Made by a program: the position numbers and the translations under genes
Notes under the pieces: generated by a model
What the model was told of the DNA's origin: nothing
Seen by the model: the letters and a program-made list of their open reading frames with translations, nothing else
The model's database searches: none
Shown here: positions 8,569-34,390 of the stretch, one piece after another
Layout of the letters: every line of letters starts with the position of its first letter
Numbering within the stretch: the stretch's first letter is position 1
Source of the DNA: Thiohalobacter sp.
GTDB lineage: Bacteria; Pseudomonadota; Gammaproteobacteria; DSM-19610
Assembly: GCA_026984515.1 (NCBI GenBank)
Contig: JALSRZ010000156.1
Location: 1-37,752 of the forward strand
DNA: 37,752 nucleotides
Reading direction: 5' to 3'

Positions 8569-8581
8569 GGCGAGTGCCCCG

Positions 8582-9397: not shown

Positions 9398-9425
9398 TGT
9401 TTTGTCTCTGCTTTTATTCCCGGAC

Positions 9426-11162: not shown

Positions 11163-11228
11163 TTTTTTCCCTTTCGCGCCAGGGGTACTGCGATAACGCG
11201 TGCATGGCCTGCCCCCCAACCCTGGCCA

Positions 11229-12443
11229 CTAGCGGGAAACCGCAATTCTAGGCCAGCGGTAGGATAGCGTCAAATACGCGGCGTTTTGCGTAGCGTCATC
11301 ACTGGTATTGTCAAAAGTCTGCTTTTTGAAATGGTAACTTGCTGAAAGATCCCAGAATTGCCTGAAACTCCACCTTATTCCAGGGGTAATATCATAATAA
11401 TCGCGGTTCAGGTTGGAGGTGATCGAGCTATCGGTCTTGCTTTGGTACAGGCTTACCGACAGCGACGCACTCAGCAACTCTGTGAAGCGATACTGGCTGT
11501 TCCACCCCACCCGGGTGACCTGGATAGGTACACCGTTGGTTGAATTGCTGATGTTCCGTGAGGCACTGACACTGGTTTCTCCACGGAGAAATTTTTTCCT
11601 GATGTTGCCGTTGAAAGTGGAGCCGGAACTGCTGTTTGATACGTTCTGGTTCAGGGGGGTAAACCCGATGATCGTGTCACCCGAGAATATCGGTACCAGG
11701 GTGTTCTGTGAAGCGTCGGTTTCAGTACGGCGTATGCCGGCGAACAGCGATGCGGACAGGGTTTCGCTGAACTGATAGGAGAACCCGCCCTGCAGGTTGC
11801 TAGTATTCGATTTTACGCCATTTTCGTTGTCATTGCGATTGTGAGAAAGGAATACCGATAGCGTGGTGCGCTCGTTGATGATCCTGCTCAGGCTGGACTG
11901 GAAATTGTGCGAGGTAAAGTCCGTGAAACCGGTTCCACCTGCATTCAGGTAGCGTACATCGGTATATCCATAGCCAAGGCTTACCTGGGTGAGTTCATTA
12001 ATATTATAGGACCAGTTAGGGCCACCGTTCAATTGCACACGCCGTACCCGGTCAAATACCACCCCGGTATCCTCAAGCTGGCTGTCCAGCGTGGAATCCT
12101 TGATGATGCTCGCATTCAGCCCGACCTGGGAGCGTTCCATGCGGTGGAAAGAATTTAAATCGAAAGAAACATTGTTTTCGTCAAGATTGCTGTCTTTTTC
12201 GAAACGCCGGAAATTCAAATGCAGGCCGCCGCTTACCCCGGATTCCGGGGTCGTCATGCTGAATACCACGCTCGGGCTCAAGGCGGTTTCAACGGTTGAT
12301 ATCTCATCATCAATATTCAGGCGAAGGTTGTCGTTATAGCCAGCCCGGGCTGTAACGGAGGGTTCGATTTTCCATTCAGCTGCGCGGACAGCTCCTGTAC
12401 CGAGCAGCAGCAAGAAAATTGAATGGCGAACGGATAGCCGCAC
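11229..12443 (-). CDS. PEP-CTERM-system outer-membrane beta-barrel protein
   Basis: This 404-residue protein has a signal peptide (cleavage near VRAAEW) and alternating hydrophobic/polar strands throughout, ending in an aromatic-rich strand (YLTLSYRWPRI). The composition is rich in Ser, Asn, Thr and Tyr, as in outer-membrane barrels. Its position between the Wza-like and Wzz-like genes and its GYNDNLRL start match the TIGR03016-type outer-membrane protein of exosortase-linked exopolysaccharide loci, thought to help export. It starts with GTG at 12443, with AAGGA nine bases upstream. It is 66 nt before the Wzz-like gene. Confidence 0.82.
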   Translation of the reverse strand: MRLSVRHSIFLLLLGTGAVRAAEWKIEPSVTARAGYNDNLRLNIDDEISTVETALSPSVVFSMTTPESGVSGGLHLNFRRFEKDSNLDENNVSFDLNSFHRMERSQVGLNASIIKDSTLDSQLEDTGVVFDRVRRVQLNGGPNWSYNINELTQVSLGYGYTDVRYLNAGGTGFTDFTSHNFQSSLSRIINERTTLSVFLSHNRNDNENGVKSNTSNLQGGFSYQFSETLSASLFAGIRRTETDASQNTLVPIFSGDTIIGFTPLNQNVSNSSSGSTFNGNIRKKFLRGETSVSASRNISNSTNGVPIQVTRVGWNSQYRFTELLSASLSVSLYQSKTDSSITSNLNRDYYDITPGIRWSFRQFWDLSASYHFKKQTFDNTSDDATQNAAYLTLSYRWPRIAVSR

Positions 12444-12557
12444 GATTCTGTGTCCTTAAGCCTTTGTATTTGAAATCAAAGAAGCGGCCCATTCGGCCAA
12501 GCCTTTAGAAAAATTTTGCGGGAATAGCAGGTGACTGCAGCCTGTCCGGAGAGAGTA

Positions 12558-13139
12558 TTACGGAACCACAACCACATCTCCCGCCTTGAGGAGAATATTC
12601 TGTTCCAGGTGTTTGCCTTTTTCGACATCTCCATACTCGAAGGGGATCGCGCTCAGTTTGCCATTTTCCCGGCGTAACACCTTGATTTTATTGAGTGCCG
12701 CATAGGTGGATGTGCCGCCTGCCATACTCAGGGCCTGCATTACATCGATATTGCGCACCATGGGGAATACACCCGGGCGGTTGACGTGTCCAAGGACGTA
12801 CACGGTATTACCCGAGAGGTTCAGGACCGAAACCGTGACCACCGGGTCGGGTATGAATTTGTTCAGGCGCTCGGTGATCTGCTGGCGCAGGGTCTCGATG
12901 GTACCCCCGCCAGCCTGGATCTCGCCCACAAGCGGGACGGTGATGTAGCCGTCCGGGCGCACGGTGACCTGTCCGGACATTTCATCTTCCTTCCATACAG
13001 AAACAGCCAGCTGGTCGCCCGGCTGGATCGGGTAGGTGCCCATCACACTGTTGTCGGTTTCTTCTGCCAGTGCGAGGGGAGTCGCGAACAGGACAGCCAG
13101 CGAGAGCAGGGTGCCGAGTAATTTCAGTGCCTTCAACAT
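12558..13139 (-). CDS. Wza-like polysaccharide export protein
   Basis: This protein of 193 residues has a signal peptide (about 1-25, LALAEET), then a polysaccharide-export (Poly_export) domain with YPIQPGDQLAVSVW and DGYITVPLVGEI, and one SLBB-type segment (VYVLGHVNRPG...VMQALSMAGG). Members form or line the outer-membrane/periplasmic export channel. It is shorter than Wza (about 380), as usual in XrtA-type loci. The ATG at 13139 follows a TGAGG ribosome site by five bases; the frame extends to 13169 without a good signal. It is the first gene of the minus-strand exopolysaccharide run. Confidence 0.9.
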   Translation of the reverse strand: MLKALKLLGTLLSLAVLFATPLALAEETDNSVMGTYPIQPGDQLAVSVWKEDEMSGQVTVRPDGYITVPLVGEIQAGGGTIETLRQQITERLNKFIPDPVVTVSVLNLSGNTVYVLGHVNRPGVFPMVRNIDVMQALSMAGGTSTYAALNKIKVLRRENGKLSAIPFEYGDVEKGKHLEQNILLKAGDVVVVP

Positions 13140-13271
13140 GGATACCTCAGATAGATAAATAACGCACAACGTTCATTTGCCCTGTCAGGGTCGTGGGAGC
13201 GGGCCGGTCTGTCCCGGGCACCTGTGTGCGGCTGATCATTGAAGCAAACGGCTTCTGAACGGTCAAGCCAC

Positions 13272-14985: not shown

Positions 14986-17502
14986 CTAGCGCTGTGCGCG
15001 CTTGCCCCGGTTCCAGCCCAGCCAGCCGAGGAACCCGGCCAGCAGCCACCAGTCCGCCCGTTTGCCCGCTTCGACCGGCGTGGCGGCGATGCTGCAGCCA
15101 CTGGTATCACTGCCGCGGTTGTCCACGAAAATCGGCGTTCCGGCCGTGCCCAGACCACTGGGATCTTCGATAATGCCCGGGGTCTTGTTCAGGTCGTTGG
15201 CGCCATCATCCGTGATGGAGAGCTGCACGCACTGGTGTCCCACGTTCACGGTGGTCTGGTTTTCGAGCGCGATATAGGCGGCATCGCCCGGGTTCGGGCA
15301 TTCCATGCCGGAGCCGCCAGCGATAAAGGGCGCTGTCTTGACGCTGTCGATGGTGGTATCGAAATCACGCCAGGTGCCGTTATCCAGGATGCGCCAGACC
15401 GGGTTATTGGGAACACCGCCACTCAGTGGCAGCACAATATCGACCCGGCTGCCCGGCGTTACACCGCTGATGGTGTAGTCGAAGCAGCTTCCGACGCACT
15501 GCTTGTCCACGTCACCGTCCGGTGTAGTTGCGCTGGCCGCCACGCGGGTCTCGTTGTCGATGGTTCCCGAGCTGGCTTTCAGACTGCCATCCAGGAACTT
15601 GACCGTGCCTTCCAGGTGCAGTGTATAGGGTACGGCGTTGAAGCCCGAGGATGCGCCCGGCAGATCCTCGACGTGCGCTGCATAGTCCAGGACGAAGGTG
15701 GAGCCGTCCTGGCAGGGTTTGTCGCTGCAGGTGATGGTGGCGAAGCCAAGGTCTTCCGGGAACTGCGAGCTGCCGCCCAGATTGATCAGGGGGATGCCGT
15801 TCCAGGTCACGTAGTATTTAGTCCGGAAATCCAGGGTGCCATCCGCCTTGCCCGTGATGCCGCCGTTGCGGGTCAGGTCAAAGCCGGTGTTGGAGAAAAA
15901 CAGCCAGGGTGCAGAGTAGCCAGGCTGCTCGGTACCGTTGGGCTTGCCGGTATGAGAACCCGTTGCCGGCTGGTCATAGCCGATGATAAATCCGCCATCC
16001 GGGCCGGGCTCCAGTACTGTATAGATGAGCTGCGTTGCCGACACCTGCATGCTGAACCAGGATATGTCGGGTTTGATACTCTGGTCTGGCTGGCCGACGC
16101 CCGGATCGAATGCGAGGATCGGGATTACGCCGGGAGGCAGAACGGTCGGCCAGTCAGAGTTGATGCTCTGTACATCGATGCTCATCGTTGCAACATTGGA
16201 GGTGAGCGGTCCGGTCACATCGATATCTGCAACCGTGTAGGTGCAGCTGTCCATGGTGGCAACGGACGGCAGCGTCTGGCTGTAGGTGATGGTGCCGTCG
16301 GCGTTGGCGGTACAGGCGCCTACGTTGCCCGGTGCATTGGTCACCGCCACCGAGCCCACGTTGATGCCGCCCGGCAGCCCGGGTGCGTTGTTGGCGTCGG
16401 TGTCATTGGCCAGCGCGTTGATCACCAGCGAACCGCCGCCCTGGTCCAGCGCCACCGGGTTGGTGGCTACCGGGTCGTCGCCGGCAACGGGTGCCACGTT
16501 GGTCTGGACGTCGACAGTAACCAGACCCTGTTCTCCTGCCGCGCCGGGTGGTGTGCTGGTCGGCGTGAGTGAAGCGCCGGCGGAGTTTGAAACGGTATAC
16601 ACAAAGGTGTCCTGGCCGGTGAAGCTCCCGGTCGGCGTGTAGGTCACGGTATCGTCCGGGTTGTCCGCCGCCGTGCCGCTGGTGGCCGGGGTATCGATGG
16701 TCACCGACCCGGGTACGAACGGGTCTGCCGCTGCAGTCCGGTCGTTGGCGGTGACACTGATGATGCGCGGGTTTCCGGTGACGGTGGTGACGGCATCGTC
16801 GACCGCAACCGGTACCGCGCCCGGCAACGTTATCCCACCTTCCAGGTGCAGTGAATATGAAACGGTCGTAAAGCCGGCGCCGGCCACGTGGTAGGCGGCG
16901 TCGAGTGAGTAACTGCTGCCGTCCGAACAGGTGCTCGTGTCGCAGCTTATGGTCGGCGTACCGGTTTCGGTCAGCGGGATGTCAGGGATGCCGTTCCAGG
17001 TAACCGACCAGGGCAGGTTCAGCGTGACGGTGTTGCCGGTTTCGCTGGCGATGGTCGTGTTAGCGGTGGTCTGGTGCATGCCGGTATTGCTGAAGAAGTT
17101 CCACGGCTTGTCGATATTCGGGCTTTCCGAGCCGTCGGGCGCGCCGGAGTGACTGCCGCTGGCCATCTGGGTGGAACCGATGACCAGACCGTTGTTGGAT
17201 TCGATAACGGTTTTTTCGCTGGGCTGGGCGCCCGGGATGCCGTTTTGGTCCATGCTGAAGTAGGAGCCGACGATGTCGGTAATTTCATAGGCCGCCTTGT
17301 TACAGGGCGGGGTGGTGCCGTAGGTGCAGCTGACCACCTGGGCTGAGCCCAGGGTGAAGTCCAGTGTCGCACCGGTCGGCAGCGCAGCCAGCACGGAGGG
17401 TGCAGACAAACCACCCAGCAGCAGGGAAATCGAGGTTGCCAGAGCTGTTTTCCTGATGCCGTTCGAGCTGAGGGCCTGAATGGCGCTTGTGTTACGTGAC
17501 AT
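14986..17502 (-). CDS. large secreted protein: duplicated unknown domain, Ig-like repeats, anchor-U region and GC-type sorting tail
   Basis: This protein has 838 residues. A signal peptide covers about 1-40. Residues 44-223 form a domain homologous to most of the divergent neighbour at 18188. Residues about 231-335 and 338-445 are two cadherin/Big_9-like modules (AVDDAVTT, GDDPVAT, NDT). Residues about 478-634 are a second, diverged copy of the first domain (WFSM, SHTG, FFSNTG, VTWNGIP, YTLHLEG). Residues about 645-790 resemble the choice-of-anchor U region. The end is a C-terminal sorting-type tail: SGCS at 801-804, hydrophobic 818-830, then Arg/Lys. It probably becomes a cell-surface protein. 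GGAGGAGGT lies eight bases before the ATG. The target or ligand is unknown. Confidence 0.8.
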   Translation of the reverse strand: MSRNTSAIQALSSNGIRKTALATSISLLLGGLSAPSVLAALPTGATLDFTLGSAQVVSCTYGTTPPCNKAAYEITDIVGSYFSMDQNGIPGAQPSEKTVIESNNGLVIGSTQMASGSHSGAPDGSESPNIDKPWNFFSNTGMHQTTANTTIASETGNTVTLNLPWSVTWNGIPDIPLTETGTPTISCDTSTCSDGSSYSLDAAYHVAGAGFTTVSYSLHLEGGITLPGAVPVAVDDAVTTVTGNPRIISVTANDRTAAADPFVPGSVTIDTPATSGTAADNPDDTVTYTPTGSFTGQDTFVYTVSNSAGASLTPTSTPPGAAGEQGLVTVDVQTNVAPVAGDDPVATNPVALDQGGGSLVINALANDTDANNAPGLPGGINVGSVAVTNAPGNVGACTANADGTITYSQTLPSVATMDSCTYTVADIDVTGPLTSNVATMSIDVQSINSDWPTVLPPGVIPILAFDPGVGQPDQSIKPDISWFSMQVSATQLIYTVLEPGPDGGFIIGYDQPATGSHTGKPNGTEQPGYSAPWLFFSNTGFDLTRNGGITGKADGTLDFRTKYYVTWNGIPLINLGGSSQFPEDLGFATITCSDKPCQDGSTFVLDYAAHVEDLPGASSGFNAVPYTLHLEGTVKFLDGSLKASSGTIDNETRVAASATTPDGDVDKQCVGSCFDYTISGVTPGSRVDIVLPLSGGVPNNPVWRILDNGTWRDFDTTIDSVKTAPFIAGGSGMECPNPGDAAYIALENQTTVNVGHQCVQLSITDDGANDLNKTPGIIEDPSGLGTAGTPIFVDNRGSDTSGCSIAATPVEAGKRADWWLLAGFLGWLGWNRGKRAQR

Positions 17503-18187: not shown

Positions 18188-18910
18188 ATGTTCAATCGTA
18201 AAACTATTTTGTCCGCAGCTGTTGTGGCCGCAATGGGGGGCGTCAGCTTCAGTGCTTCAGCTGCCCTGACCAGCAGTGCAACACTGGACTTCAATCTGGG
18301 CGCTCCGGGTACTGTGGCCTGTAACTACGGCACCACCCCGCCCTGTAACAAGGCGTCCTACGCGCAGACCGACATCGTCGGTTCCTACTTCAGCATGGAC
18401 ACCAACGGTGACGGTGTCGTTGCTGTTGGTGAAAAGACCCCGATCGGTTCCTTCAACGGCCTGCACTTCGGTACCGCACAGGGCGCCAGCGGCAGTCACT
18501 CCGGCACTGTAGACAATTCTGAAAATCCGAATATCGATATGGCCTGGAACTTCTTCGGCAATACCGGTATGCACCAGACCCTTAGTCCGACCACGGACAA
18601 TGGTGATGGTACCATCAACCTGGACTGGAACGTAACCTGGAACGGTCTGCCCAGTATTCCGTTGGTTGCAACTTCGTCTACCACGCTCGTGTGTGACACG
18701 GCTACCTGTTCCGACAGCAGCAACTACACCATCGACGGTGCGTTCCACGTTGCCGGTGCCGGTTTCACCACGGTTGGCTACACCGTGCATCTGGAAGGCC
18801 ACGTTTCGCAGCCTACCTCCACGGTTCCGGTTCCGGCCGCTGCCTGGTTGTTCGGTTCCGGCCTGATGGGTCTGGCAGGCGTTGCACGTCGGCGCAAAAG
18901 CAAGGCCTAA
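18188..18910 (+). CDS. secreted protein with VPLPA/PEP-CTERM-like sorting signal
   Basis: This protein has 240 residues. It carries a signal peptide (1-26, ending SASA), one ~180-residue domain homologous to residues 44-223 and more weakly 478-634 of the divergent neighbour, and a C-terminal sorting signal: VPVPAAAWLFGSG (213-225), a hydrophobic stretch and ARRRKSKA. This is the gammaproteobacterial VPLPA variant of PEP-CTERM, processed by an exosortase in known systems. Residues 71-82 (DTNGDGVVAVGE) form a canonical EF-hand-type calcium loop. Paired Cys (TPPC, LVCD, TATC) suggest disulfides. A sigma-54 promoter precedes it, AGGAG lies seven bases before the ATG, and a strong terminator follows. 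Confidence 0.87.
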   Translation: MFNRKTILSAAVVAAMGGVSFSASAALTSSATLDFNLGAPGTVACNYGTTPPCNKASYAQTDIVGSYFSMDTNGDGVVAVGEKTPIGSFNGLHFGTAQGASGSHSGTVDNSENPNIDMAWNFFGNTGMHQTLSPTTDNGDGTINLDWNVTWNGLPSIPLVATSSTTLVCDTATCSDSSNYTIDGAFHVAGAGFTTVGYTVHLEGHVSQPTSTVPVPAAAWLFGSGLMGLAGVARRRKSKA

Positions 18911-23051: not shown

Positions 23052-24011
23052 TCAGTGTTTGGGGGCCGCGCGCCGCCAGGGCTGCGTGGTGAGCAATGTG
23101 TCCAGGCCGGGAACGAACGCCGCGTAACCGAACTGCGTCCAGATGACGCGCTGCTTGCTGTTGAGCACGAAGTTTCTGCCGTGCAGGAAGCGGGTGTTAT
23201 CGACCATCAGCACGTCGCCTTGCTGCCATTTGTGGGCGACGCTCAGGGCGTCGGACACCTGTTTCAGTTCGTCGCACACGGCGGCCGGAACTTCACTGCC
23301 GTCTTCAAAAGTCGGGAAATCCTTCCAGCCCTGCATGTTGCGGGCGAACAGCAGGAAGCTGCCGAACGCGTACTGGTCGCTGAACATGGGTTTGTGGAGG
23401 GCCGGTGTGGTATAGGTGCTGTACAACACGCCGTCCTCTATCGTGATATCGAGCGGGCAATTTTCGTCCAGGCCGGCCAGCGCTGCTGCATCCGGTTGTT
23501 TGCTGCCGAGCCATAATTCACAGTCTTCCGGGGTCATCCGGGTGCGGTACCGGAATGACCGCTCCATCAGCAGGTTGCGCGTCTCTTCTTTCAGCGCTGC
23601 TACCACGGGTATGCCATCGCACAGCAGGGTTTCCCCGCCGACCAGCGGCGGCGACTTACAGGCAAACCAGGCGATATCGGGCCGGGTCGGCATGCTCGAC
23701 ATTTCCGGGTGCAGCGGAAAGGCTTCGTGACCCAGGTTGACGGTCTGGATGCGTCGGTCAGGCGAGACATTTTCCCGTCCACGGGCGCGGTTGACGATAA
23801 AATTGCTGCAGTAGGCGGCGGCCAGTTCGTGAAACGAATCGTGGTCCAGCGGGAAACCGCGGAACAGGATGGCGCCGTGTTCACGAAATGCAGCTATAAC
23901 ATCTTGTTTATCAAGTGAGTTCAGTGCCTGATCAGCGTTCTGCGGGGTAATTACCGCGTAATTGCCCCCGGCTTCAGGCTGGGTGATTTCTGGTTTCAAC
24001 GTCTTCTCCAC
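23052..24011 (-). CDS. TauD/SyrP-like Fe(II)/2-oxoglutarate dioxygenase
   Basis: This protein of about 319 residues has the jelly-roll oxygenase signature with an H-x-E variant facial triad: His101-Pro-Glu103 in FPLHPEMS and a distal His277 in NTRFLHGR. Arg288 is a good candidate to bind 2-oxoglutarate. The EMSSMPTRPDIAWF...GGETLLCDG stretch resembles SyrP-type amino-acid hydroxylases and clavaminate-synthase relatives (also H-x-E). Taurine or alkyl-sulfate dioxygenases are alternatives, but those use H-x-D. The frame is open to 24482, yet conserved sequence begins near the GTG at 24011. An ATG at 24140 is the other candidate. It heads the operon with two TPR-sulfotransferases. Confidence 0.82.
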   Translation of the reverse strand: MEKTLKPEITQPEAGGNYAVITPQNADQALNSLDKQDVIAAFREHGAILFRGFPLDHDSFHELAAAYCSNFIVNRARGRENVSPDRRIQTVNLGHEAFPLHPEMSSMPTRPDIAWFACKSPPLVGGETLLCDGIPVVAALKEETRNLLMERSFRYRTRMTPEDCELWLGSKQPDAAALAGLDENCPLDITIEDGVLYSTYTTPALHKPMFSDQYAFGSFLLFARNMQGWKDFPTFEDGSEVPAAVCDELKQVSDALSVAHKWQQGDVLMVDNTRFLHGRNFVLNSKQRVIWTQFGYAAFVPGLDTLLTTQPWRRAAPKH

Positions 24012-24140
24012 ATGGACCGGCCTGCTTGTCCGGTGGCATGTCTCGCAGCGCGTCGCCCCGCCCGGTTTCCGGCAGGACCCCCTGTACTCCTGATATTTGA
24101 CGCGCGAGAATGCAAATTCTAACACATAGCGAGACTGCAT

Positions 24141-25196
24141 ATGAATACGCCCCCCCCGGCCTTTGAGTGGGATGAGCTGTTCCACCGGCCGGATCACCAC
24201 CTGCTGGAATTTTCCGGCCCCCAGGCATTGTTTGTTCCCATGACGCGGGAGAGCTACGCGCGTTCCATTTTTACCGACCGGCAGCGTATCGTACCGGCAC
24301 ATCCCTCCGGACGTGGTGTCGATCTCAACCGGCTGCTGGAGCGCTTCGACGCCGAGGCGATCCCGGCGCGGCCGCTGCGCTTTGTTTTCCACCTGGCCCA
24401 CGGGGGTTCGACCCTGCTTTCCCGGGCGCTGGACTGCCCCGGTCGTAGCCTGGTTATCCGCGAGCCTTTCCCGTTGCGGCAACTGGCGGGCGAGCGCCTG
24501 TCGGCCGTGCCCGGTACCATGGATATGGCCTTATGGGAGAAACGGCTGCGGCTGGTAACGGCGCTGCTCGGCCGGCGTTACCGCGACTCGGAACCGGTGG
24601 TGGTAAAAGCCAACGTGCCGGTCAACTTCATATTGCCGCAGTTACTGGCACTGCAGGAGGATAGCCGCAGTCTGTTGTTGTACTCCGGCCTGCAACCCTA
24701 TCTCGTCTCGGTGTTGAAAGGGCCTGATCACCGGCGCTGGGTGAGCAATGTGATTCGGCAGCTCGAGGGAGGTGTGCGGAGTATCGAGGCGCTGTCTGCG
24801 GTGCGGGTGGCGGAGCTCTCCGCCCCTGAAGCAGCGGCCTGCCTGTGGCTGGCGCAGATGTACCAGTACGCGCGGCTGCTGGAAACGCACGCCGGCGTGA
24901 AGTCGCTCGACTCGGACCGGTTCTTTGATCGGCCGCTGGAATCACTGCGAGCGGCCGTGGAGTTTTACGGCCTCGAGCTGTCACAGGCTGAACTCGAAGG
25001 CATAGTGGCGGGCGAACTGTTTACCCGCCACGCCAAGCTTCCGGGCCAGCGTTATGACAATGCAGTGCGCAAGGCGGACATGGAACGACACACCCGGGAA
25101 AACCGGCAGGATATCGAGGCGGGCCTGCGCTGGGCGGAAAAGTTTCTGCCCGGACTCGACTTGCCCGGCGTGCTTCCCAACGCGCTGGTTTCCTGA
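24141..25196 (+). CDS. sulfotransferase-like P-loop protein
   Basis: This 351-residue protein has no TPRs. A FVFHLAHGGSTLLSRAL segment (81-97) has the position and pattern of a sulfotransferase PAPS loop, with GGSTLL in place of PRSGTT. VIREPFPLRQL and VVVKANVPVNFI resemble the following strands of that fold. The 3'-phosphate motif is not clear, so it may be a diverged or non-sulfating relative. It is divergent from the oxygenase gene; the ATG forms a CATATG with a possible opposite-strand ATG at 24140. It faces the tail of the 262-residue sulfotransferase-like gene (convergent, 6 nt apart). Confidence 0.65.
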   Translation: MNTPPPAFEWDELFHRPDHHLLEFSGPQALFVPMTRESYARSIFTDRQRIVPAHPSGRGVDLNRLLERFDAEAIPARPLRFVFHLAHGGSTLLSRALDCPGRSLVIREPFPLRQLAGERLSAVPGTMDMALWEKRLRLVTALLGRRYRDSEPVVVKANVPVNFILPQLLALQEDSRSLLLYSGLQPYLVSVLKGPDHRRWVSNVIRQLEGGVRSIEALSAVRVAELSAPEAAACLWLAQMYQYARLLETHAGVKSLDSDRFFDRPLESLRAAVEFYGLELSQAELEGIVAGELFTRHAKLPGQRYDNAVRKADMERHTRENRQDIEAGLRWAEKFLPGLDLPGVLPNALVS

Positions 25197-25202
25197 GGCT
25201 GG

Positions 25203-25991
25203 TCAGGTGTGCTCGGGCGGGTCGTGGTAACCCAGCATCGCGATGGCTTCCCGGTAGTCCCGGTTGCGCCGGAACCTGCGCAGCAGGTCCGGGTCGACCG
25301 GCAGTTGCGGCAGGGGTGTGATTCTGCCCAGCCGTGACCCGCGTGAGGATCCCGACAGGTCGCCCGTGACGTGCCGGTTGCTGTGCCAGCGGTCGATGAA
25401 GCGGGCATCGAACTCCAGCGCCAGCTGCGTGCACAGGGTGCGCATCTCTGACAACGGGTCGCGCGCGAAGTCTTCGTAGCGGGTGAAACCGGTTTTGCTG
25501 CACTGTTCGGCAAACTGCCGGTAGCCGGCAAGAAAGGCGTCGAGTTCGAGGTGACCGCGCATGATATCCAGGCGCGAGGTGCTCAACCACTGGTCCACCG
25601 GGTGGCGCGTCAGCGCATGTTGCGAAACGGTAAATACCTGCGCAAGCTGTTCGGTCAGCAGCAGGCGCCGGGCGGGATGGGCAATAAAAGGGATGCCGAT
25701 AAAGTCCAGGTGCGCCCAGTCGCGAATGATCAGGGTCTTTCCCTGTTCCGAACAACGTTGTTCGATCAGCTGTATCGCCTGGATAAAACTGAACGTTCTG
25801 CCACCGGTATCTTCCGGGCGCAGCAGCCGGTACCAGTCCTGTGCCTGCGCCAGCGGGTTGAAAAATCGCTGGTCCAGCGGGTGAATCTCGCTCAGCAATA
25901 CAATGTTATCCATGGCGCCCACGCAGCGGCTGATGAGCGTTCCGCCGGCACGGGCAAGGTTGGAAAGGATGCGGATGGGGCGCTTGCTCAT
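25203..25991 (-). CDS. small sulfotransferase-like protein
   Basis: This 262-residue protein begins with a P-loop-like ILSNLARAGGTLISRC (8-23) that replaces the usual PRSGTT. LIIRDWAHLDFIG follows, as does a good 3'-phosphate-type segment TRHPVDQWLSTSR (about 128-140). The size and motif order fit a single-domain sulfotransferase fold without TPRs. Catalytic competence is uncertain because the PAPS loop is altered. It is the last gene of the four-gene minus-strand operon, 26 nt after TPR-sulfotransferase C. Substrate unknown. Confidence 0.68.
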   Translation of the reverse strand: MSKRPIRILSNLARAGGTLISRCVGAMDNIVLLSEIHPLDQRFFNPLAQAQDWYRLLRPEDTGGRTFSFIQAIQLIEQRCSEQGKTLIIRDWAHLDFIGIPFIAHPARRLLLTEQLAQVFTVSQHALTRHPVDQWLSTSRLDIMRGHLELDAFLAGYRQFAEQCSKTGFTRYEDFARDPLSEMRTLCTQLALEFDARFIDRWHSNRHVTGDLSGSSRGSRLGRITPLPQLPVDPDLLRRFRRNRDYREAIAMLGYHDPPEHT

Positions 25992-26017
25992 TACGACAGG
26001 ATCGAATGCTCCGGGTC

Positions 26018-27784
26018 CTACCGTCCAAGTGTTTCGCGCAGCGGGGTGAGGAACTCGGCATAGTTTTTCCAGCGCGACACGGAGGAGGTGTACAGCGGGC
26101 GGCGCACCTGGTCGTAGCTGGCGGTTGCCACATAGCGCTGCGTCTTGTGAAAATCATGGCAGCGGTCGTCCCAGTCCAGACCGCAGAAGTCCACCATCTG
26201 CCGGCTGACCCGTTCCCGGTCGCTAACCAGTTCCTCGTACTGTACTTCCAGCATCGGCAGACTCAACACTTCGCGCCAGTGCTGCATGACCCGCTCATAG
26301 CCCCGGTAGAAGGCGCCAAGATCGCGCAAATCGTAGGAATACGGGTGTGAGCGGGAAAAATCCTGGAAGTAGCAGGACAGGCAGGTGTCCAGCGGGTCGC
26401 GCATGCTGTGGATGATGCGCGCATCGGGAAACAGTTGTTCGATCAGGCCGAGGTACATGAAATTGCCGGGCATCTTGTCAACCACCCGTGCTGCGTCCGG
26501 TGACAGTGCATCGATCTGCTCCAGGTAGCTTTGCGCAAGCACATCCAGCTCTGCCGGGGTCAGCCCCGGCACGCAGTGCGGGTAGGGTTGTGGCTTGTCC
26601 AGGGTGGCCTGCAGTGAGCCTGCGATTTGTATGACATGAATCAGTTCCCCTGCACCGAATACCGCAGGATGGCTGGCAAGTATCTGTTCGATCAGGCTGG
26701 TGCCGGAGCGTGGCATGCCGACCACGAATACCGGCCGCCCGGAGCGGGTGCCGGAGCGCGGCAGGGTGTTCATCCGTTCGCATGAATAGACCGCGATCGT
26801 TGCCTGCACATTGGCTTCGCGTGCCGCGGCATCGTACCCGGCGTTTTTGAGGGCATTGCCTTTCCGGTAGTGCCCGAAGGCCTTGCGGTATTCCCGGTTC
26901 TTGTCGTACAGGTTGCCGAGGTTGAAATGCAGGTTGCGCTGGCCGGTTGCCGAAAGGGGCGGCCCGGTGTCGAGCCGCTGTTCCAGCAATGGAATCGCCG
27001 CTCCGGGTTCGTCGCTGCTGCCGCACAGCGCTGCCCAGGCCAGCAGGATGTTGACTTCGTTGTTGCCGGCATCCACCAGCGGGGCCAGGCGCTCCCGTGC
27101 CTTTTCCAGTTTGCCCTTGTGCTGGTCGATGGTAGCGGCGAGGGAAATCAGTTCAATATTATCACGATCCTGTTCCAGTGCCGTTTCGATCAGTTGTTCT
27201 GCCTCATCCGGTTCGCCCAGTGGCATCAGGGTGGCGGCGAGCGCGATACAGGCATCGATATAGCCCGGTTTGAGTTGGATGGCTTCGCGAATATGTGGCA
27301 CCGCCAGCGGCTGTTTCCCCGCCAGGGACAGCACTACACCGATACCCAGCCGGGCTGCCGCGTGCCGCGGGTTGATTTGCAGCGCCTGCTGGTAGTGCTC
27401 CAGCGCTTCGCGGAGATTGCCCAGCATTTGCTGCGCATTGCCCAGTCCCCAGCAGGCCTGGGCAATGCGAGGGTTGAAACGCAGTGCCTGCCTGAAGAAG
27501 TCGATGGCACTGGCCCACTCGCCCTGTCTTAACAGGACATATCCCAGGCCGTGAGCCGCTTCGGCAAACTCCGGTTTGATGTGCAGGGCCTCGCGGTAGG
27601 CTGTGCCGGCTTCATCCAGCCGGTCGAATTCTGCGCAGGCGCGGCCGAGCATGAACCATGCGTCAGCCGCGCGGGGCAGCAGGCGGACCAGTCGGCTACA
27701 GAGCTCTGCGGTCGTCGCCCAGTCGCCACGCTGTGATGCGGCCGTTGCCTGTTCGGACAGCTGTTGTACGTCTTCGCCTGGCAT
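26018..27784 (-). CDS. TPR-sulfotransferase fusion protein C
   Basis: This 588-residue protein has about seven TPRs followed by a sulfotransferase domain from about residue 345: VGMPRSGTSLIEQ (PAPS loop), DKMPGNFMYLG, MRDPLDTCLSCYFQDFS (3'-phosphate site) and ATASYDQVRRPLYTSSV. The C-terminal half is strikingly similar to paralogs B and D, which shows recent duplication. It is likely cytoplasmic. It lies 23 nt after the CmoA-like gene and 26 nt before the small sulfotransferase-like gene, so it should be co-expressed with both methyltransferase-fold enzymes. No strong ribosome site is visible before the ATG. Substrate unknown. Confidence 0.9.
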   Translation of the reverse strand: MPGEDVQQLSEQATAASQRGDWATTAELCSRLVRLLPRAADAWFMLGRACAEFDRLDEAGTAYREALHIKPEFAEAAHGLGYVLLRQGEWASAIDFFRQALRFNPRIAQACWGLGNAQQMLGNLREALEHYQQALQINPRHAAARLGIGVVLSLAGKQPLAVPHIREAIQLKPGYIDACIALAATLMPLGEPDEAEQLIETALEQDRDNIELISLAATIDQHKGKLEKARERLAPLVDAGNNEVNILLAWAALCGSSDEPGAAIPLLEQRLDTGPPLSATGQRNLHFNLGNLYDKNREYRKAFGHYRKGNALKNAGYDAAAREANVQATIAVYSCERMNTLPRSGTRSGRPVFVVGMPRSGTSLIEQILASHPAVFGAGELIHVIQIAGSLQATLDKPQPYPHCVPGLTPAELDVLAQSYLEQIDALSPDAARVVDKMPGNFMYLGLIEQLFPDARIIHSMRDPLDTCLSCYFQDFSRSHPYSYDLRDLGAFYRGYERVMQHWREVLSLPMLEVQYEELVSDRERVSRQMVDFCGLDWDDRCHDFHKTQRYVATASYDQVRRPLYTSSVSRWKNYAEFLTPLRETLGR

Positions 27785-27807
27785 CTGGGTGTATTTCGTC
27801 CGGGGGG

Positions 27808-28539
27808 CTAGCGGATGCCAATGTAGCTGGCAAAGTTGTACCAGCGGAAAATCATGTCCACTTTTTTAAAACCGGCGTCGCGCAGTGCAGCCAGTTGCTG
27901 TTCGGGGGTAATCGGCCGCAATACATTTTCCAGCGCTTCGCGTTTCTGTGAAATTTCCAGTTCGGAGTAGCCGTTGCGGCGTTTGAAATCGTAGTACAGC
28001 TCGGTCAGCAACTCCTGCACGTGTGCTTCATCCACCCTGATCTTTTCGCTGAGCATGAATACGCCATCCTTGCGCAGCCCGTCGTGAATGGTTTTCAGTA
28101 CCTGCGGTCTTTTGTCGGGGTCCAGGAACTGCAGGGTGTAATTCATTACCACCAGGTCTGCATCGTGAATATCCGTATCTTCGATATTCCGGCAGTGGAG
28201 TGTACAGTCCCTGACGCCCGTCGATGAAATTTTCTCCCGGCACTTGACCAGCATGCTTTCCGAGTTGTCGACACCGACAAAGCCGGGCTGGATTCCGCTT
28301 GCGGCCAGGTGCCTGGAGAGAATGCTGATGGTGGTGCCGGTGGAACAGCCGAGATCGTAGACCCGCCTGAGATCCGGACAGGCACGGTCTACGATATCGA
28401 GCAGGATACGGTGAATTTCGTCATAAAACGGCACGGACCGGGAGACCATGTCATCGAAGACATCGGCAACCTCCTGGTTGAACTCAAAGGCGGTTCCGGG
28501 ACTCAGGTGTTTGTCGAATACCTTGTCTTTTCTGCTCAT
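27808..28539 (-). CDS. CmoA-like carboxy-S-adenosylmethionine synthase
   Basis: This 243-residue protein aligns over its whole length with E. coli CmoA: VADVFDDMVSRSVPFY, YDLGCSTGTT (SAM motif I, 61-70), VMNYTLQFLDP and FKRRNGYSELEISQKR. Tyr39 and Arg200 correspond to positions associated with the carboxylate of carboxy-SAM in CmoA, so it probably converts SAM and prephenate to carboxy-SAM. In E. coli that product feeds CmoB for tRNA wobble uridine modification. Here no cmoB is adjacent: the partner, overlapping by ATGA, is an N2227-like methyltransferase, and sulfotransferase genes follow. It could be a second, specialised CmoA or simply the housekeeping copy. Confidence 0.87.
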   Translation of the reverse strand: MSRKDKVFDKHLSPGTAFEFNQEVADVFDDMVSRSVPFYDEIHRILLDIVDRACPDLRRVYDLGCSTGTTISILSRHLAASGIQPGFVGVDNSESMLVKCREKISSTGVRDCTLHCRNIEDTDIHDADLVVMNYTLQFLDPDKRPQVLKTIHDGLRKDGVFMLSEKIRVDEAHVQELLTELYYDFKRRNGYSELEISQKREALENVLRPITPEQQLAALRDAGFKKVDMIFRWYNFASYIGIR

Positions 28540-29615
28540 TCTTTAACCGCTGTGAAATAGAGACAATCATACACCGTGCGCTGGCAGCTCTCACGGGGAG
28601 CGAGGTGCGGCTTGGTCGAAAATCCCTGCTTGATGACCCGGAAGCCTGAGGCGTTGACAATGGACAGGACTTCTTTGGCCGTGTAGTTGATGCCCGGTCG
28701 AAAGGACATGGCGCCGTAGTTTACCCAGTAGCCACCCGGCTGAAGAATACGCTGTATTCGCGGTGCGAAATCCCGCAGATCCTCGCCAACTGCGTCAATC
28801 AGAAAGGGGGTGAGGATGGCATGGAAAGCATGCTCTGCAAATGGCAGGCTGGTGGCGTCCGCCAGCATGAAAAGAAAATCGTTGTCCGGTTTGCGCGGTG
28901 CGTGTAGCTTCCACAGCGTGACATTGTCCTGTGCGTTGCGGACATTGTTCGGCTGGATCTGGTACAGGTTCAGTTCACCGCCCGACACGATTCGGGAAGC
29001 ACCGAGTAACATCAGCGGGGCAATGTCGACGGACACGGTGAGGGGGCAGTTGTAATGGTTGTGCAGGTTGTAGGCATCCCGGCATGCGCCGGCCCCGAGC
29101 ACCAGCAGGGATTCCAGTGCAAGGTCGTCGGGCAGGATTTCCATGACCTTGTCGCACAGGATGTCGACTTCACCGGTTTCCCAGCCCCAGTCGCGCAGCA
29201 GATACACCATGAGCATAAAGGATCCCAGTGCATCTGCGTGCTCTTCGGGGGGTGTGCCCGGCCCCAGATCGCGTTGCGGTGCCATTAGCTCAAGGATGGT
29301 CTGCAGGTTGTCTGCCCGTGCCCGGGTGACTTTTTTCAACCGTTCCCGCAACGGCGGGTAGATGGAGGGGGATGCGATCAGGTGCTGGTTCGATTCGATG
29401 TTACGTTGCTGGGAGGCAATGTAATTGGCAAAGCGGTTCTGCCACAGGCCAATGAATTTGTCGGGATCAGGCATCAGCACCGGTATGTCGGTAAGCAGCG
29501 GGAAGTCCTGCCCGCATGCGCTGCAAGCCAGTTTGTCCCCGAGGCGTAGTGTGCCGGAACAGCCGGGGCACTGCAGTTTGTTCGAGGCGAGGAGTTTTTC
29601 GATATTGTCATTCAT
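28536..29615 (-). CDS. N2227-like SAM-dependent transferase with N-terminal zinc ribbon
   Basis: This protein of about 359 residues starts with a Trm112/rRNA-MTase-type zinc ribbon (Cys16-x2-Cys19 ... Cys31-x2-Cys34), followed by DFPLLTDIPVLMPD. A Rossmann methyltransferase domain follows, with motif I LLVLGAGACRDAY and VSVDIAPLMLLGA. The late GGYWVNYGAMSFR...YTAKEVLSIVNASGFR region resembles N2227/carnosine N-methyltransferase relatives. The stop overlaps the CmoA-like start (ATGA), implying coupled translation. This raises the possibility that it uses carboxy-SAM as donor. The ATG at 29615 is preferred over a TTG at 29660. It is the first gene of the four-gene operon. Acceptor unknown. Confidence 0.75.
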   Translation of the reverse strand: MNDNIEKLLASNKLQCPGCSGTLRLGDKLACSACGQDFPLLTDIPVLMPDPDKFIGLWQNRFANYIASQQRNIESNQHLIASPSIYPPLRERLKKVTRARADNLQTILELMAPQRDLGPGTPPEEHADALGSFMLMVYLLRDWGWETGEVDILCDKVMEILPDDLALESLLVLGAGACRDAYNLHNHYNCPLTVSVDIAPLMLLGASRIVSGGELNLYQIQPNNVRNAQDNVTLWKLHAPRKPDNDFLFMLADATSLPFAEHAFHAILTPFLIDAVGEDLRDFAPRIQRILQPGGYWVNYGAMSFRPGINYTAKEVLSIVNASGFRVIKQGFSTKPHLAPRESCQRTVYDCLYFTAVKE

Positions 29616-29954: not shown

Positions 29955-32459
29955 ATGGTAAAAAAATCCAAAGACCTGGCGGCCCGGGCGCAGGCGTTGT
30001 ATGACGAACGCAAGCTCGCTGATGCGCTGGCACTGTTCAGGGAGGCCTGTGCTTCCGATCCCGGTAATCCGGATGTGTGGATGATGCGCGGGGCCTGTCA
30101 TCAAAAGCTGGGTGACTTTGAGGCCGCAGTTGCCTCGTTGCAGCAGGCCGTCGAGTTGCAGCCTGACGCGGTCGATTACCGGCTGAACCTCGCCAACGCG
30201 CTGGTGACTGCCGGAAACCTGCCGCAGGCCGTGGAAATCTACCAGGGCATACTCAGGGTTCAGCCTGCCAGGGCCGGTGTATGGGCCCTGCTGGGCAAGG
30301 TCTGCCTGCAGTTGAATAATCCAGAAGCCGCTGAGCAGGCGTGCCGGCAGGCGCTCCGGTTGCGGCCGGATAACGTCAATGCGCGTATGACGCTGGGCAA
30401 TGCGCTGCGCGCGCGGGGGGAACATCACGAGGCGCTCGATTGTTTCCAGGAAGTTGTACAACAGGTGCCGGAACACGGGGCCGCCCATGCGCACCGCGGC
30501 CGGGTGCTGCAGAAGCTGGGGCAGACTGACGCAGCGCTGGAGGCTTATCGCAAAGCTGTACAATACAACCCGGGCCGACAGACCATCCACTGCCGACTCG
30601 GTAAACTGCTGAAGGAACAGGGCCAGCTGGAAGCGGCGGAAGCTTCGTACCGACGCGCAGTGGAATTAAAACCGGATGACACGCGTGCATTGACCGGGCT
30701 GGGCCATGTGTTGCTGGTACTGCGCAGGAAGGAAGAAGCGCTGCACTGCTACCAGCAGGCCGTGGAGTACGATCCGGAGAATACGGAAATGCACCTCAAC
30801 CTGGGTTGCGCGCTGCGCGACCTGGGACGAGAGGAAGCGGCGATCGCCAGCTTCAGGAAATCTCTCCGGCTCGATACCAGCAACGCCGATTCCCATTACT
30901 ACCTGGGCCTGGTACTGAAAGGGCTGGGCCGTTTCAGGGAGGCGGCTGAAAGCCTGTCCGCAGCAATCAAACTGTACCCGGAATACGTACCCTATGTGCT
31001 GGCACTGGCCACGCTGCAACAGAGTATGGCCGATTACCCGAGAGCCCTGAGCGGTTTTCAGCGGGTGTTGCAGCTCGAACCGGACAACGGGGAAGCCTGT
31101 TACGGGCAGGGCGCGGTGTTGTACACCCAGGGTCGTTACCGCGAAGCCATCAGCAGTTATCGTCAGGCCGTGCTCCACCGGCCGAAAGCCGCCAGGTATC
31201 ACGTTGGACTGGCGGCCGCCCTGATGGCCGAGAGCCGGCACGAAGAGGCCGGGGAGTGTTGCGAGAAGGCGCTGGCGATCGCGCCGGACAATAGCGATGC
31301 GGCAGCACTGGCGGCACAGATCGCCGTGCGCAGGGGGGACAAGAAAAAGGCCTATACCATTCTGCAGCCGTTGCTGGAACAGGGTGAACGGTCGGAAAAT
31401 GTCGTGATGGCGTTTGCCAATGTCAGCAAGGATGTCGGCCGTACCCGGGAGGCCATCCGGCTGTTGCAGGATATTGTGGACCAGGATTCCAGGCAGTCAC
31501 GGGAAAGCCTGGTTAACCTGCACTTCAGCCTGGGCAGGCTGTATGACAGGGAAGGGGAATATGAGCAGGCTTTTCACCATTTCGAACAGGGTAACCGGCT
31601 GAAGCAGGTTTCTTTTGGCGCTGCGCACCATATGCTGGAAGTGGATGCGCTGGTGGCGCAAAACAACTGGTACTTCATGAACAGCTTGCCCCGTTCCACC
31701 ATCCGCTCGGAGCGCCCGGTGTTTATTGTCGGCATGCCGCGCTCCGGAACCACGCTGGTCGAACAGATACTAGCCAGTCACCCGGCAGTATTCGGCGCAG
31801 GCGAGCTTCCCGATATCGGCCGGATGGCCGAGCGTTTGCCGACCATGCTGGCTACACAAAAAACATTTCCCCAGTGCCTGTCGCTGGTTGGGACAGAGCA
31901 GCTCGACGCGCTTGCAAGGGCCTACCTGGCCCGCCTGGAGAAACTGTCGCCGGATGCTGAGCGCGTTACGGACAAGATGCTGGGCTTTATGTACCTCGGA
32001 CTGATACAGCTGGTGTTTCCCTCTGCGCGGGTAATCCACTGCCGGCGTGATCCGCTGGATACCTGCCTGTCCGGTTATTTCCAGGATTTTTCCAGCGCGC
32101 ATTCCTACTCCTACGACCTGTACAACCTGGGGGTCTATTACCGCGGCTATGAGAAAATCATGCAGAACTGGCGCAATGTGCTCAGCCTGCCAATGCTGGA
32201 GGTGCAGTACGAAGACATGGTTGCTGACCAGGAGGCGGTCAGCCGCGAGTTGATTGAATTCTGCGGCCTGGAATGGGATGACCGCTGTCTGCGGTTCCAT
32301 GAGCACGAACGGTTTGTCGGTACCGCGAGTTACGACCAGGTGCGTCAGCCGATCTACACCAGTTCAGTCGGGCGCTGGAAAAACTACGACCGGTTTATTG
32401 GTTCGCTGCGCGAGGCGCTGGAGTTGTTCAAGGTACAGCAACATCGTGATGATCAGTGA
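29955..32459 (+). CDS. TPR-sulfotransferase fusion protein D (largest)
   Basis: This 834-residue protein has about twelve to thirteen TPRs over residues ~5-560, then a sulfotransferase domain near 590-820 with IVGMPRSGTTLVEQ, CRRDPLDTCLSGYFQDFS and GTASYDQVRQPIYTSSV. Compared with paralogs B and C, the conserved DKMPGNFMYLG segment reads DKMLGFMYLG: one codon is missing and Pro is replaced by Leu (nucleotides 31971-32000). That could change substrate handling. No ribosome site is obvious before the ATG. The next gene, a lipoprotein, starts about 50 nt downstream on the same strand and may be co-transcribed. It is cytoplasmic by lack of a signal. Substrate unknown. Confidence 0.9.
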   Translation: MVKKSKDLAARAQALYDERKLADALALFREACASDPGNPDVWMMRGACHQKLGDFEAAVASLQQAVELQPDAVDYRLNLANALVTAGNLPQAVEIYQGILRVQPARAGVWALLGKVCLQLNNPEAAEQACRQALRLRPDNVNARMTLGNALRARGEHHEALDCFQEVVQQVPEHGAAHAHRGRVLQKLGQTDAALEAYRKAVQYNPGRQTIHCRLGKLLKEQGQLEAAEASYRRAVELKPDDTRALTGLGHVLLVLRRKEEALHCYQQAVEYDPENTEMHLNLGCALRDLGREEAAIASFRKSLRLDTSNADSHYYLGLVLKGLGRFREAAESLSAAIKLYPEYVPYVLALATLQQSMADYPRALSGFQRVLQLEPDNGEACYGQGAVLYTQGRYREAISSYRQAVLHRPKAARYHVGLAAALMAESRHEEAGECCEKALAIAPDNSDAAALAAQIAVRRGDKKKAYTILQPLLEQGERSENVVMAFANVSKDVGRTREAIRLLQDIVDQDSRQSRESLVNLHFSLGRLYDREGEYEQAFHHFEQGNRLKQVSFGAAHHMLEVDALVAQNNWYFMNSLPRSTIRSERPVFIVGMPRSGTTLVEQILASHPAVFGAGELPDIGRMAERLPTMLATQKTFPQCLSLVGTEQLDALARAYLARLEKLSPDAERVTDKMLGFMYLGLIQLVFPSARVIHCRRDPLDTCLSGYFQDFSSAHSYSYDLYNLGVYYRGYEKIMQNWRNVLSLPMLEVQYEDMVADQEAVSRELIEFCGLEWDDRCLRFHEHERFVGTASYDQVRQPIYTSSVGRWKNYDRFIGSLREALELFKVQQHRDDQ

Positions 32460-32512
32460 TTATGCTTCATCTTCGCGCTATGTCCGCGCTGACGGGCGTT
32501 CAGGGGCGTAGC

Positions 32513-34390
32513 GTGAAGAAGTTGTTGCGGAACTGCTGTCTTGTGTCCATGCTGGCTTGCCTGGTGGCCTGCGAGCAGCCGACCGTGAGTGAATCCGAAT
32601 CCTTTGAGCCCCAGCTTGTCCAGGCGCTGTCGCTGGCAGGACTGGACCGGACCGTCCTGGTGCTGCCCAGGGTGCCTTACCCGGTAGCAAAGCCGGCGCG
32701 CTTGTCCCTGGTCGACAAGTCATTGTGGAATCCGCCCTCCATGGTGGATCTTTCGCAGCGGCTGACGGCGGCAAACCGGGACGGGGCCAGAAGTGCGTAT
32801 GCCGGTCGCCTGTTGCAACTGCTGGAACTGGATGCTGCAGTGCCTGACTGGCCGGCAGCAGGATCGGGAGATTCTGCTAGTGTGCCGGATCGGCAGGTGC
32901 CCCCTGCAGACTGGGTGGCGGATGCGGAGCTGGTAACCGCGCTGCGAAACCTGTTGCACGCTGAGGTGATAGCCAGACAGGCCTGGCTGGACGCTTCCGG
33001 GGACCCGAATGGGGAAGCGTTGCAGGCGCTGCCGGATTTGCTAAAGGATACGCTGGAGTACCACGGCAAGAACCCGGACAAATTCCGTTTTCTGAACAAG
33101 GCCTGGCACCGGGCGGGAGCAAACCAGAAGCTGGATCGTGTGGCAACGGCGATGACGGGATTGCTGGCCGTGGTGGAGCACAACCTGCCGGTATTGCAAC
33201 GGATGTCGTCCGTTGCCGGGGGCGAATGGATGACGCCGTTGGGAAAGGTGAAGGTTGCCGGTACGGGTGATGACCGGCACACTGGCGAATACCGCTTGCT
33301 GATCGACCTGGGCGGCAACGACCACTATGAAAATGTTACGGCGCCCCTTGCCGTCGGGAACGTATCGATCGTCATCGATCTGGCAGGAGATGACAGCGTA
33401 CACTGGGATGCGGCAGCCGGTCCCGGGGCGGGCTTGCTGGGACTGGGTATCTGGGTGGACCTGGCCGGAAATGACCGTTACTCGGGGGGCAGCCTGGGAC
33501 TGGGTGCCGGAATATTGGGTGCAGGCCTGCTATGGGATGTCGCCGGGGATGATGTCTATGACGCGCGGGCGATGTCCCAGGGAGCCGGGCAGTACGGGAT
33601 CGGTATGCTGTTCGATGACAGCGGTAGCGATCGCTATCGATCCGCGCTGAACGGCCAGGGCTATGGCGGATCGGGCGGCTTCGGCGTGCTGGTGGACAGC
33701 GGGGGTGACGACGATTATTCCTGCGCTGGTGCCTTCCCGGACCTGGCGCAGAGAAGGATCAACCGTCATGACAGAACACACTATCTGAGCCTTTGTCAGG
33801 GTTTCGGGTTCGGGATACGGCCCGGAATTTCCGGTGGGGTCGGGTTGTTGCTGGACCGGACGGGCAACGACCGTTATAAAGCGGACATCTTCGGGCAGGG
33901 CGCGGCGTACTGGTTTGGTCTCGGGTTGCTGGTAGATGCTGCCGGCGATGATCATTACGAGGCTTTTGAGCACGCGCAGGGTGAAGGATTGCACCTGGGT
34001 GCCGGCTTGCTGAGCGATCAGCGTGGCAACGATCATTACACCGGTTACGAACATGTCCAGGGTGTGGGTAAGGACAGGGGCGCCGGGATACTGTACGAGC
34101 GGGCGGGTAACGACGTCTACCAGGCTTTCAGGCAGTCACAGGGCGCGGGGCTTGCCTCCTATGGTGTGGGCATCCTGGTCGACGCCGGTGGAGATGACCG
34201 GTACCAGGCGAAAATTCATGCGCAGGGATATGCGGGGCGGCCCGACCCCGGTTTCCCGGAAGAGGAGTGGCCCACCGGCATACTGCTCGATCTTGGCGGG
34301 GCCGATATTTTTGACCAGCCGTATACCGATGAAGTGACTCCAGCCGGCAGAGTGCAAAACCGGCAGGGTGTTGCTATCGACTACAGGTAA
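32513..34390 (+). CDS. lipoprotein with about twelve G-D-x-x-G-N/D-D-x-Y repeats
   Basis: This protein of about 625 residues starts at a GTG with GGGGC just upstream. The first 20 residues form a lipoprotein signal (lipobox LVAC, Cys20). Residues ~21-260 are a helical domain with no family I recognise. From about 33296 to 34335, roughly twelve units of ~27 residues repeat the pattern G-[LI]-L-x-D-x-x-G-[ND]-D-x-Y-x-A-x4-QG-x-G. Regular Gly and Asp suggest a beta-solenoid, perhaps binding calcium at GNDxY turns. That is an inference; the units are not classic RTX nonapeptides. It probably sits in the outer or inner membrane facing the periplasm or surface. Starts at 32456 or 32462 are possible but weaker. 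Confidence 0.75.
   Translation: MKKLLRNCCLVSMLACLVACEQPTVSESESFEPQLVQALSLAGLDRTVLVLPRVPYPVAKPARLSLVDKSLWNPPSMVDLSQRLTAANRDGARSAYAGRLLQLLELDAAVPDWPAAGSGDSASVPDRQVPPADWVADAELVTALRNLLHAEVIARQAWLDASGDPNGEALQALPDLLKDTLEYHGKNPDKFRFLNKAWHRAGANQKLDRVATAMTGLLAVVEHNLPVLQRMSSVAGGEWMTPLGKVKVAGTGDDRHTGEYRLLIDLGGNDHYENVTAPLAVGNVSIVIDLAGDDSVHWDAAAGPGAGLLGLGIWVDLAGNDRYSGGSLGLGAGILGAGLLWDVAGDDVYDARAMSQGAGQYGIGMLFDDSGSDRYRSALNGQGYGGSGGFGVLVDSGGDDDYSCAGAFPDLAQRRINRHDRTHYLSLCQGFGFGIRPGISGGVGLLLDRTGNDRYKADIFGQGAAYWFGLGLLVDAAGDDHYEAFEHAQGEGLHLGAGLLSDQRGNDHYTGYEHVQGVGKDRGAGILYERAGNDVYQAFRQSQGAGLASYGVGILVDAGGDDRYQAKIHAQGYAGRPDPGFPEEEWPTGILLDLGGADIFDQPYTDEVTPAGRVQNRQGVAIDYR

Follow-up and report, generated by a model that had tools for sequence, protein, structure and literature searches.

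A CmoA homolog paired with a CARNMT1-like transferase in a sulfotransferase-rich locus of Thiohalobacter: possible use of carboxy-SAM outside tRNA

Carboxy-S-adenosylmethionine (Cx-SAM) is a rare natural derivative of S-adenosylmethionine (SAM), for which four published uses were found. In E. coli it serves the CmoA/CmoB pathway to 5-carboxymethoxyuridine at position 34 of tRNA (cmo5U34). Outside tRNA, it is used in the synthesis of 3-thiaglutamate (TglE/TglF), in a microcin C-like pathway (MccS/MccB) and in the modification of phage DNA (CmoA/CmoX) (PMC10491745, PMC12783734). Here, a four-gene operon was analyzed which occupies positions 25203 to 29615, on the minus strand, of a 37,752-nucleotide stretch of DNA from Thiohalobacter sp. 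(positions 1 to 37,752 of contig JALSRZ010000156.1, assembly GCA_026984515.1); this whole stretch is referred to as the window. The operon encodes an N2227/CARME-like transferase, a CmoA homolog, a TPR-sulfotransferase (TPRST_C) and a small sulfotransferase-like protein. As stated in a preliminary description of the sequence, all four genes run in one direction, with junctions of -4, +23 and +26 nucleotides (open reading frame list and arithmetic). The same description took tRNA as the established use of Cx-SAM, which the published systems contradict.

Each of these systems resembles the operon in part. In the Bacillus microcin C-like system a CmoA homolog supplies Cx-SAM to an enzyme of the methyltransferase fold without significant similarity to CmoB (PMC10491745); its transferase, however, is the C-terminal domain of MccB, its acceptor belongs to a peptidyl-cytidylate antibiotic pathway, and sulfotransferases are absent. 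Phage CmoA/CmoX, the source of 5-carboxymethylcytosine, likewise joins a CmoA homolog to a transferase other than CmoB, and the genome concerned lacks cmoB (PMC12783734), but CmoX is a homolog of DNA C5-cytosine methyltransferases acting on phage DNA, whereas the partner in the window is CARME/CARNMT1-like and is encoded in a cellular surface locus. TglE and TglF are a Cx-SAM synthase and a carboxymethyltransferase of a dedicated pathway (PMC10491745); TglF is CmoB-like with Lys91 kept, while the window genome has no CmoB-like protein. Since MccS/MccB and CmoA/CmoX have been published, the general kind, CmoA with a non-CmoB transferase, is already known. In the literature searched there was no report of the CARME partner, of the sulfotransferase/XrtA setting or of a pairing between CmoA and LmtA/ICMT-like proteins (described below), nor of any CmoA whose partner is a phospholipid, LmtA or an N2227-type protein, although absence there is not proof.

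Profile searches of the window genome (3.37 Mb, 99.99% estimated completeness) revealed a single CmoA, the operon copy. It exceeds the curated equivalog cut-off of TIGR00740 (230 versus 193.3 bits) and falls below that of the stricter NF011995 (PRK15451) model (175 versus 285 bits). Arg199 of E. coli CmoA forms a salt bridge to the Cx-SAM carboxylate (PMC3663124), and its equivalent is R200, within QKREALENV, of the window protein. The equivalents of the contacts Y39, D62, G64, S66, D89, N90, N132, F137 and E164 are also kept, one adenine contact being altered (D117 to N). Judged by family assignment and conserved contacts, the homolog very probably makes Cx-SAM. The low PRK15451 score, the altered adenine contact and the long branch of this CmoA could be taken as signs that it has lost this activity and is either an ordinary methyltransferase using SAM or a relic of the tRNA pathway in decay. 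This is highly improbable given the retention of Arg199, Glu164 and the remaining contacts, a ratio of nonsynonymous to synonymous substitution rates (dN/dS) of 0.06-0.08, and the lack of CmoA in those searched genomes of the genus that have no transferase gene.

No cmoB was detected in the window genome, where TIGR00452 scored at best about 27 bits (cut-off 275), nor in any of the 17 genomes of the genus that were searched for CmoA and cmoB. The canonical cmoA-cmoB pair is carried by a sister genus (G002), so that loss of the tRNA system from the genus of the window seems to have occurred. CmoA scored over the cut-off in three of the 17 genomes, namely the window genome and two other species (G005 and G006). 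These are exactly the genomes carrying the N2227-like gene, and the two genes are always adjacent. The order N2227-CmoA-TPRST is kept in G005 and G006, with identities of 95% for both the N2227-like and CmoA proteins in G006 and of 79% and 84%, respectively, in G005. Over the three genomes dN/dS of the N2227-like gene is about 0.05-0.13; adjacency and order persist to a synonymous divergence (dS) of 1.0-1.3 with dN/dS near 0.1. The pair is under purifying selection, and the kept order in two other species with low dN/dS disfavours a chance association.

The 4-nucleotide overlap between the two genes is common to the window and G006 and is replaced by a gap of 19 nucleotides in G005. Flanking genes have been gained or lost while the pairing persists. 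The small sulfotransferase has a 66% identical copy in G005 and is missing in G006. The reverse holds for a TauD gene and a second small sulfotransferase-like gene, for a 351-residue protein, both present in G006 but not in G005. This leaves a conserved core of three genes, the small sulfotransferase being facultative. A plasmid search gave no match to the N2227-like protein. A sole cmoA with its cmoB elsewhere in the genome and no conserved tie to the N2227-like gene is thus not what was found: cmoB is absent from genome and genus, and the linkage is conserved. The occurrence of the sole cmoA of a cmoB-free genome in a conserved operon suggests carboxymethylation of a non-tRNA target, not yet described.

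The transferase matched PF07942 (CARME) with 50 bits against a gathering cut-off of 27, and its AlphaFold2 (AF2) model had a predicted local distance difference test score (pLDDT) of 88. The top structural match to this predicted model was CARNMT1 (VIA), with Z 27 and a root mean square deviation of 2.9 Å over 298 residues. OvoM, OvsM and OvoA (Z about 18-19) came next, and then RlmA(I) (Z 17.6) and CmoB (Z 16.6), the last tied with generic methyltransferases. CARNMT1 and the Ovo/Ovs enzymes are imidazole N-methyltransferases or contain one. D274 of the transferase aligns with motif IV Asp316 of CARNMT1, the carnosine and C3H zinc-finger histidine N-methyltransferase, and D197 with Glu229 (Glu to Asp). 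In CARNMT1, Asp316 hydrogen-bonds the imidazole (PMC6400499), while Glu229 contacts AdoMet (PMC6400499, PMC12275196) and is required for activity (PMC12275196). The fold, the Asp316 equivalent and the Post I acid are thus common to the window protein, CARNMT1 and OvoM/OvsM; the zinc ribbon at its N-terminus and the genetic tie to CmoA set it apart, and identity in the structural alignments is 13-19%.

The SAM motifs of the transferase are intact, and its known CARME relatives use SAM. Woeseiaceae and neighbouring groups often carry distant N2227-like relatives (27-38% identity), and none of 78 such bacterial proteins has CmoA nearby; presumably they use plain SAM. These data would suit an ordinary SAM-dependent methyltransferase of the histidine/imidazole type, with CmoA feeding an unlinked enzyme or with both acting at different steps of one pathway. 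The two genes, however, occur in exactly the same genomes, adjacent and, in two of the three, overlapping by 4 nucleotides, and both CmoB and the PEMT-like partner described below are absent from the window genome. Furthermore, the CmoA-linked clade has replaced many residues which are invariant in the plain relatives, including some in the C-terminal acceptor-side strands. These substitutions fit a changed donor or a changed acceptor, either one. Two clade-specific basic residues, K335 and R341, are candidates for binding the carboxymethyl group. On this evidence an ordinary methyltransferase is rather unlikely, and the use of Cx-SAM by the paired transferase has a somewhat better than even prospect. 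Some of the distant relatives, at Woeseiaceae loci that include L041, L042 and L043, are extended at the C-terminus by about 90 residues (DGKRSIxxxA...), a part that recalls PqqD-like domains; at L041 and L043 the N2227-like gene follows a run of secreted-looking proteins in a common gene order.

The reading favoured here, though held at about even probability, is that of a dedicated Cx-SAM synthase and a CARNMT-type carboxymethyltransferase within a surface-modification locus. The CmoA homolog would turn SAM and prephenate into Cx-SAM, from which the CARNMT1/OvoM-type transferase would pass the carboxymethyl group to a nucleophile. Since the window enzyme retains the catalytic Asp with which CARNMT1 positions imidazole, the most plausible acceptor would be a nitrogen, of an imidazole or otherwise, in a protein or small molecule. 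The tyrosylprotein-sulfotransferase-like enzymes would sulfate the same or neighbouring surface products of what is an exopolysaccharide/PEP-CTERM locus. If the transferase does use Cx-SAM, its acceptor is likely not tRNA but a protein of the surface, a glycan or a small molecule. Several points weigh against the favoured reading. As a diffusible compound, Cx-SAM could reach an enzyme encoded elsewhere in the genome; the 78 distant relatives lack a CmoA neighbour; trhP is present, making hydroxyuridine tRNA available as an acceptor; and no carboxylate-binding residue comparable to Lys91, Tyr200 and Arg315 of CmoB or Arg350 of CmoX was assigned in the transferase. In addition, the pair is confined to three species of one genus, and these three genomes alone have inherited, along with it, the surrounding block that includes a repeat lipoprotein; the co-occurrence therefore counts as effectively one evolutionary event.

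TrhP, which makes 5-hydroxyuridine at position 34 (ho5U34), was identified in the window genome by its NCBIfam equivalog (728 bits, cut-off 534), and trhO was not found there; from this match, ho5U34 is probably made in its tRNA. The presence of trhP keeps as a serious rival the proposal that the N2227-like enzyme takes the place of CmoB, to which it is not homologous, and acts on ho5U34, with CmoA in its usual pathway. CmoB also stands next to the top structural matches, albeit in the tie noted above, and the presence of a zinc ribbon is reminiscent of RlmA(I), an rRNA methyltransferase. Nevertheless, six other members of the genus among those searched have a strong U32/TrhP-type gene and neither cmoA nor the transferase, which indicates that the genus does without cmo5U. 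The location of the pair in a surface-modification locus, its sporadic distribution, and the imidazole acceptors indicated by the structure and the Asp316 equivalent also oppose a tRNA function, and replacement of CmoB is considered quite unlikely. The six genomes (G004, G009, G010, G013, G015 and G016) lack cmoB as well, and their hydroxyuridine tRNA may be left unmodified or be methylated by another route.

A neighbourhood survey of the CmoA clade, as proposed in the preliminary description, covered 369 genomes of the class. Most of the CmoAs nearest to that of the window had no cmoB after them. Three trees each placed the cmoB-linked CmoAs together behind a branch with 100/100 support, and the window CmoA lay outside; in one of them, all 45 cmoB-linked rows were on the far side of this branch. 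With three phage CmoAs (at most 38.5% identical to the window CmoA) as outgroup, the approximately unbiased test did not distinguish (p 0.19) between a window protein sister to the cmoB side and one near the PEMT side. The residue after the Cx-SAM Arg is Glu in 25 of 25 members of the non-cmoB group, the window included, and in none of the 45 cmoB-linked CmoAs, which have mainly Ser, Thr, Ala or Gln. The window protein therefore resembles E. coli CmoA in family membership and Cx-SAM contact residues, but differs in this Glu, in its position outside the cmoB-linked clade and in the absence of cmoB from its genus.

At 16 of the 22 non-cmoB-group loci that do not belong to the window lineage, CmoA has a PEMT/ICMT-type membrane methyltransferase gene next to it on the same strand, in 15 cases immediately downstream (0-87 nucleotides); none of the 45 cmoB-linked CmoAs has such a neighbour. 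Among NCBIfam models the PEMT-like protein comes closest, under cut-off, to LmtA, which O-methylates the 1-phosphate of lipid A. The pairing was seen in many gammaproteobacterial genera (loci L170-L175, L177, L180-L185, L191 and L199). Most of the genomes concerned lack cmoB, and several have an unlinked cmoB, in which case one CmoA may serve two users. Such gene pairs suggest a Cx-SAM-dependent modification of a lipid or of lipid A phosphate, and it seems that Cx-SAM is used outside tRNA more widely than published. A tentative generalization, given somewhat less than an even chance, is that gammaproteobacterial CmoAs not adjacent to cmoB serve Cx-SAM chemistry outside tRNA, either with LmtA/ICMT-like membrane methyltransferases (on a lipid head group or lipid A phosphate) or, as here, with a soluble CARNMT1-type transferase in a tyrosine-sulfation/PEP-CTERM locus, giving a carboxymethylated and possibly sulfated surface product of a new kind. 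If true, this would be a fifth use of Cx-SAM, and carboxymethylation by a CARNMT1-type transferase would be new to biology. The cmoB-free genomes offer a clean background, since only a system of this sort could account for a carboxymethylated product there, and across many genera CmoA with its LmtA/ICMT-like neighbour is a concrete gene pair bearing on the carboxymethylation of lipids. In one genome (G221, locus L179) CmoA has an APS-kinase gene next to it; this was considered as a link to sulfation and dropped, the neighbourhood being housekeeping (L13, GcvP, diacylglycerol kinase).

The best PDB match of the TPRST_C catalytic domain was human protein-tyrosine sulfotransferase 2 (TPST2; E 2e-11). 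By this homology and its P-loop for 3'-phosphoadenosine 5'-phosphosulfate, TPRST_C is classed as protein-tyrosine-sulfotransferase-like. The small protein of the operon had no Pfam or NCBIfam match; its low-confidence AF2 model (pLDDT 54) had TPST1 and other sulfotransferases as top matches, and on that model it looks like a sulfotransferase. Four TPR-sulfotransferases and two small sulfotransferase-like genes lie within 14 kb, and in so dense a neighbourhood a sulfotransferase next to the CmoA pair is weak evidence of coupling. Of the dual-anion modification proposed in the preliminary description, carboxymethylation of a kind not yet described is thus supported by the sole cmoA, the missing cmoB and the conserved N2227 linkage; the dual part gains little from adjacency, and sulfate and carboxymethyl on one molecule is doubtful.

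Table of features in and around the operon
Feature	Position	Strand	Remarks
N2227/CARME-like transferase, proposed carboxymethyltransferase	28536-29615	-	359 aa; N-terminal zinc ribbon C16, C19, C31, C34
CmoA-family putative carboxy-SAM synthase	27808-28539	-	243 aa; TIGR00740 230 bits
TPR-sulfotransferase TPRST_C	26018-27784	-	588 aa; PF13469 (Sulfotransfer_3) 164 bits; P-loop PRSGTSL
Small sulfotransferase-like protein	25203-25991	-	262 aa; P-loop-type ARAGGTL; facultative operon member
TPR-sulfotransferase TPRST_D, divergent neighbour	29955-32459	+	PF13469 157 bits; kept in G005 and G006
Lipoprotein-like repeat protein	32456-34390	+	Lipobox-like LVAC; nine [DN]DxY repeats
351-aa convergent protein	24141-25196		Sulfotransferase-like loop LAHGGSTLLSRAL; no profile match; in G006, not at G005 locus
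TauD-family dioxygenase	23052-24014		Within sulfotransferase cluster
VPLPA/PEP-CTERM protein	18188-18910		
Cadherin-like secreted protein	14986-17502		
XrtA/PEP-CTERM exopolysaccharide export genes	7282-13169		Adjoin sulfotransferase array

The gene for the repeat lipoprotein overlaps that of TPRST_D by 4 nucleotides and occurs only in the three genomes with the CmoA/N2227 pair. Its [DN]DxY repeats compare with 0.25 expected, and the G005 ortholog has 10. With tyrosines in an acidic context suited to sulfation, it is a possible substrate for tyrosine sulfation. A DHY motif in this protein, tyrosine-sulfated and carboxymethylated at His, was a further candidate, but G005 does not conserve the His, which leaves it unsupported as an acceptor there.

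To the left of the operon are XrtA-system genes, for an ATPase, a tyrosine autokinase, a chain-length determinant and exopolysaccharide export, together with the cadherin-like and VPLPA/PEP-CTERM proteins, and the gene order of this flank is the same in G005 up to its contig end. The last two proteins have a similar stretch, YGTTPPCNKAxYxxTDIVGSYFSMD, which suggests that they are related secreted proteins in tandem.

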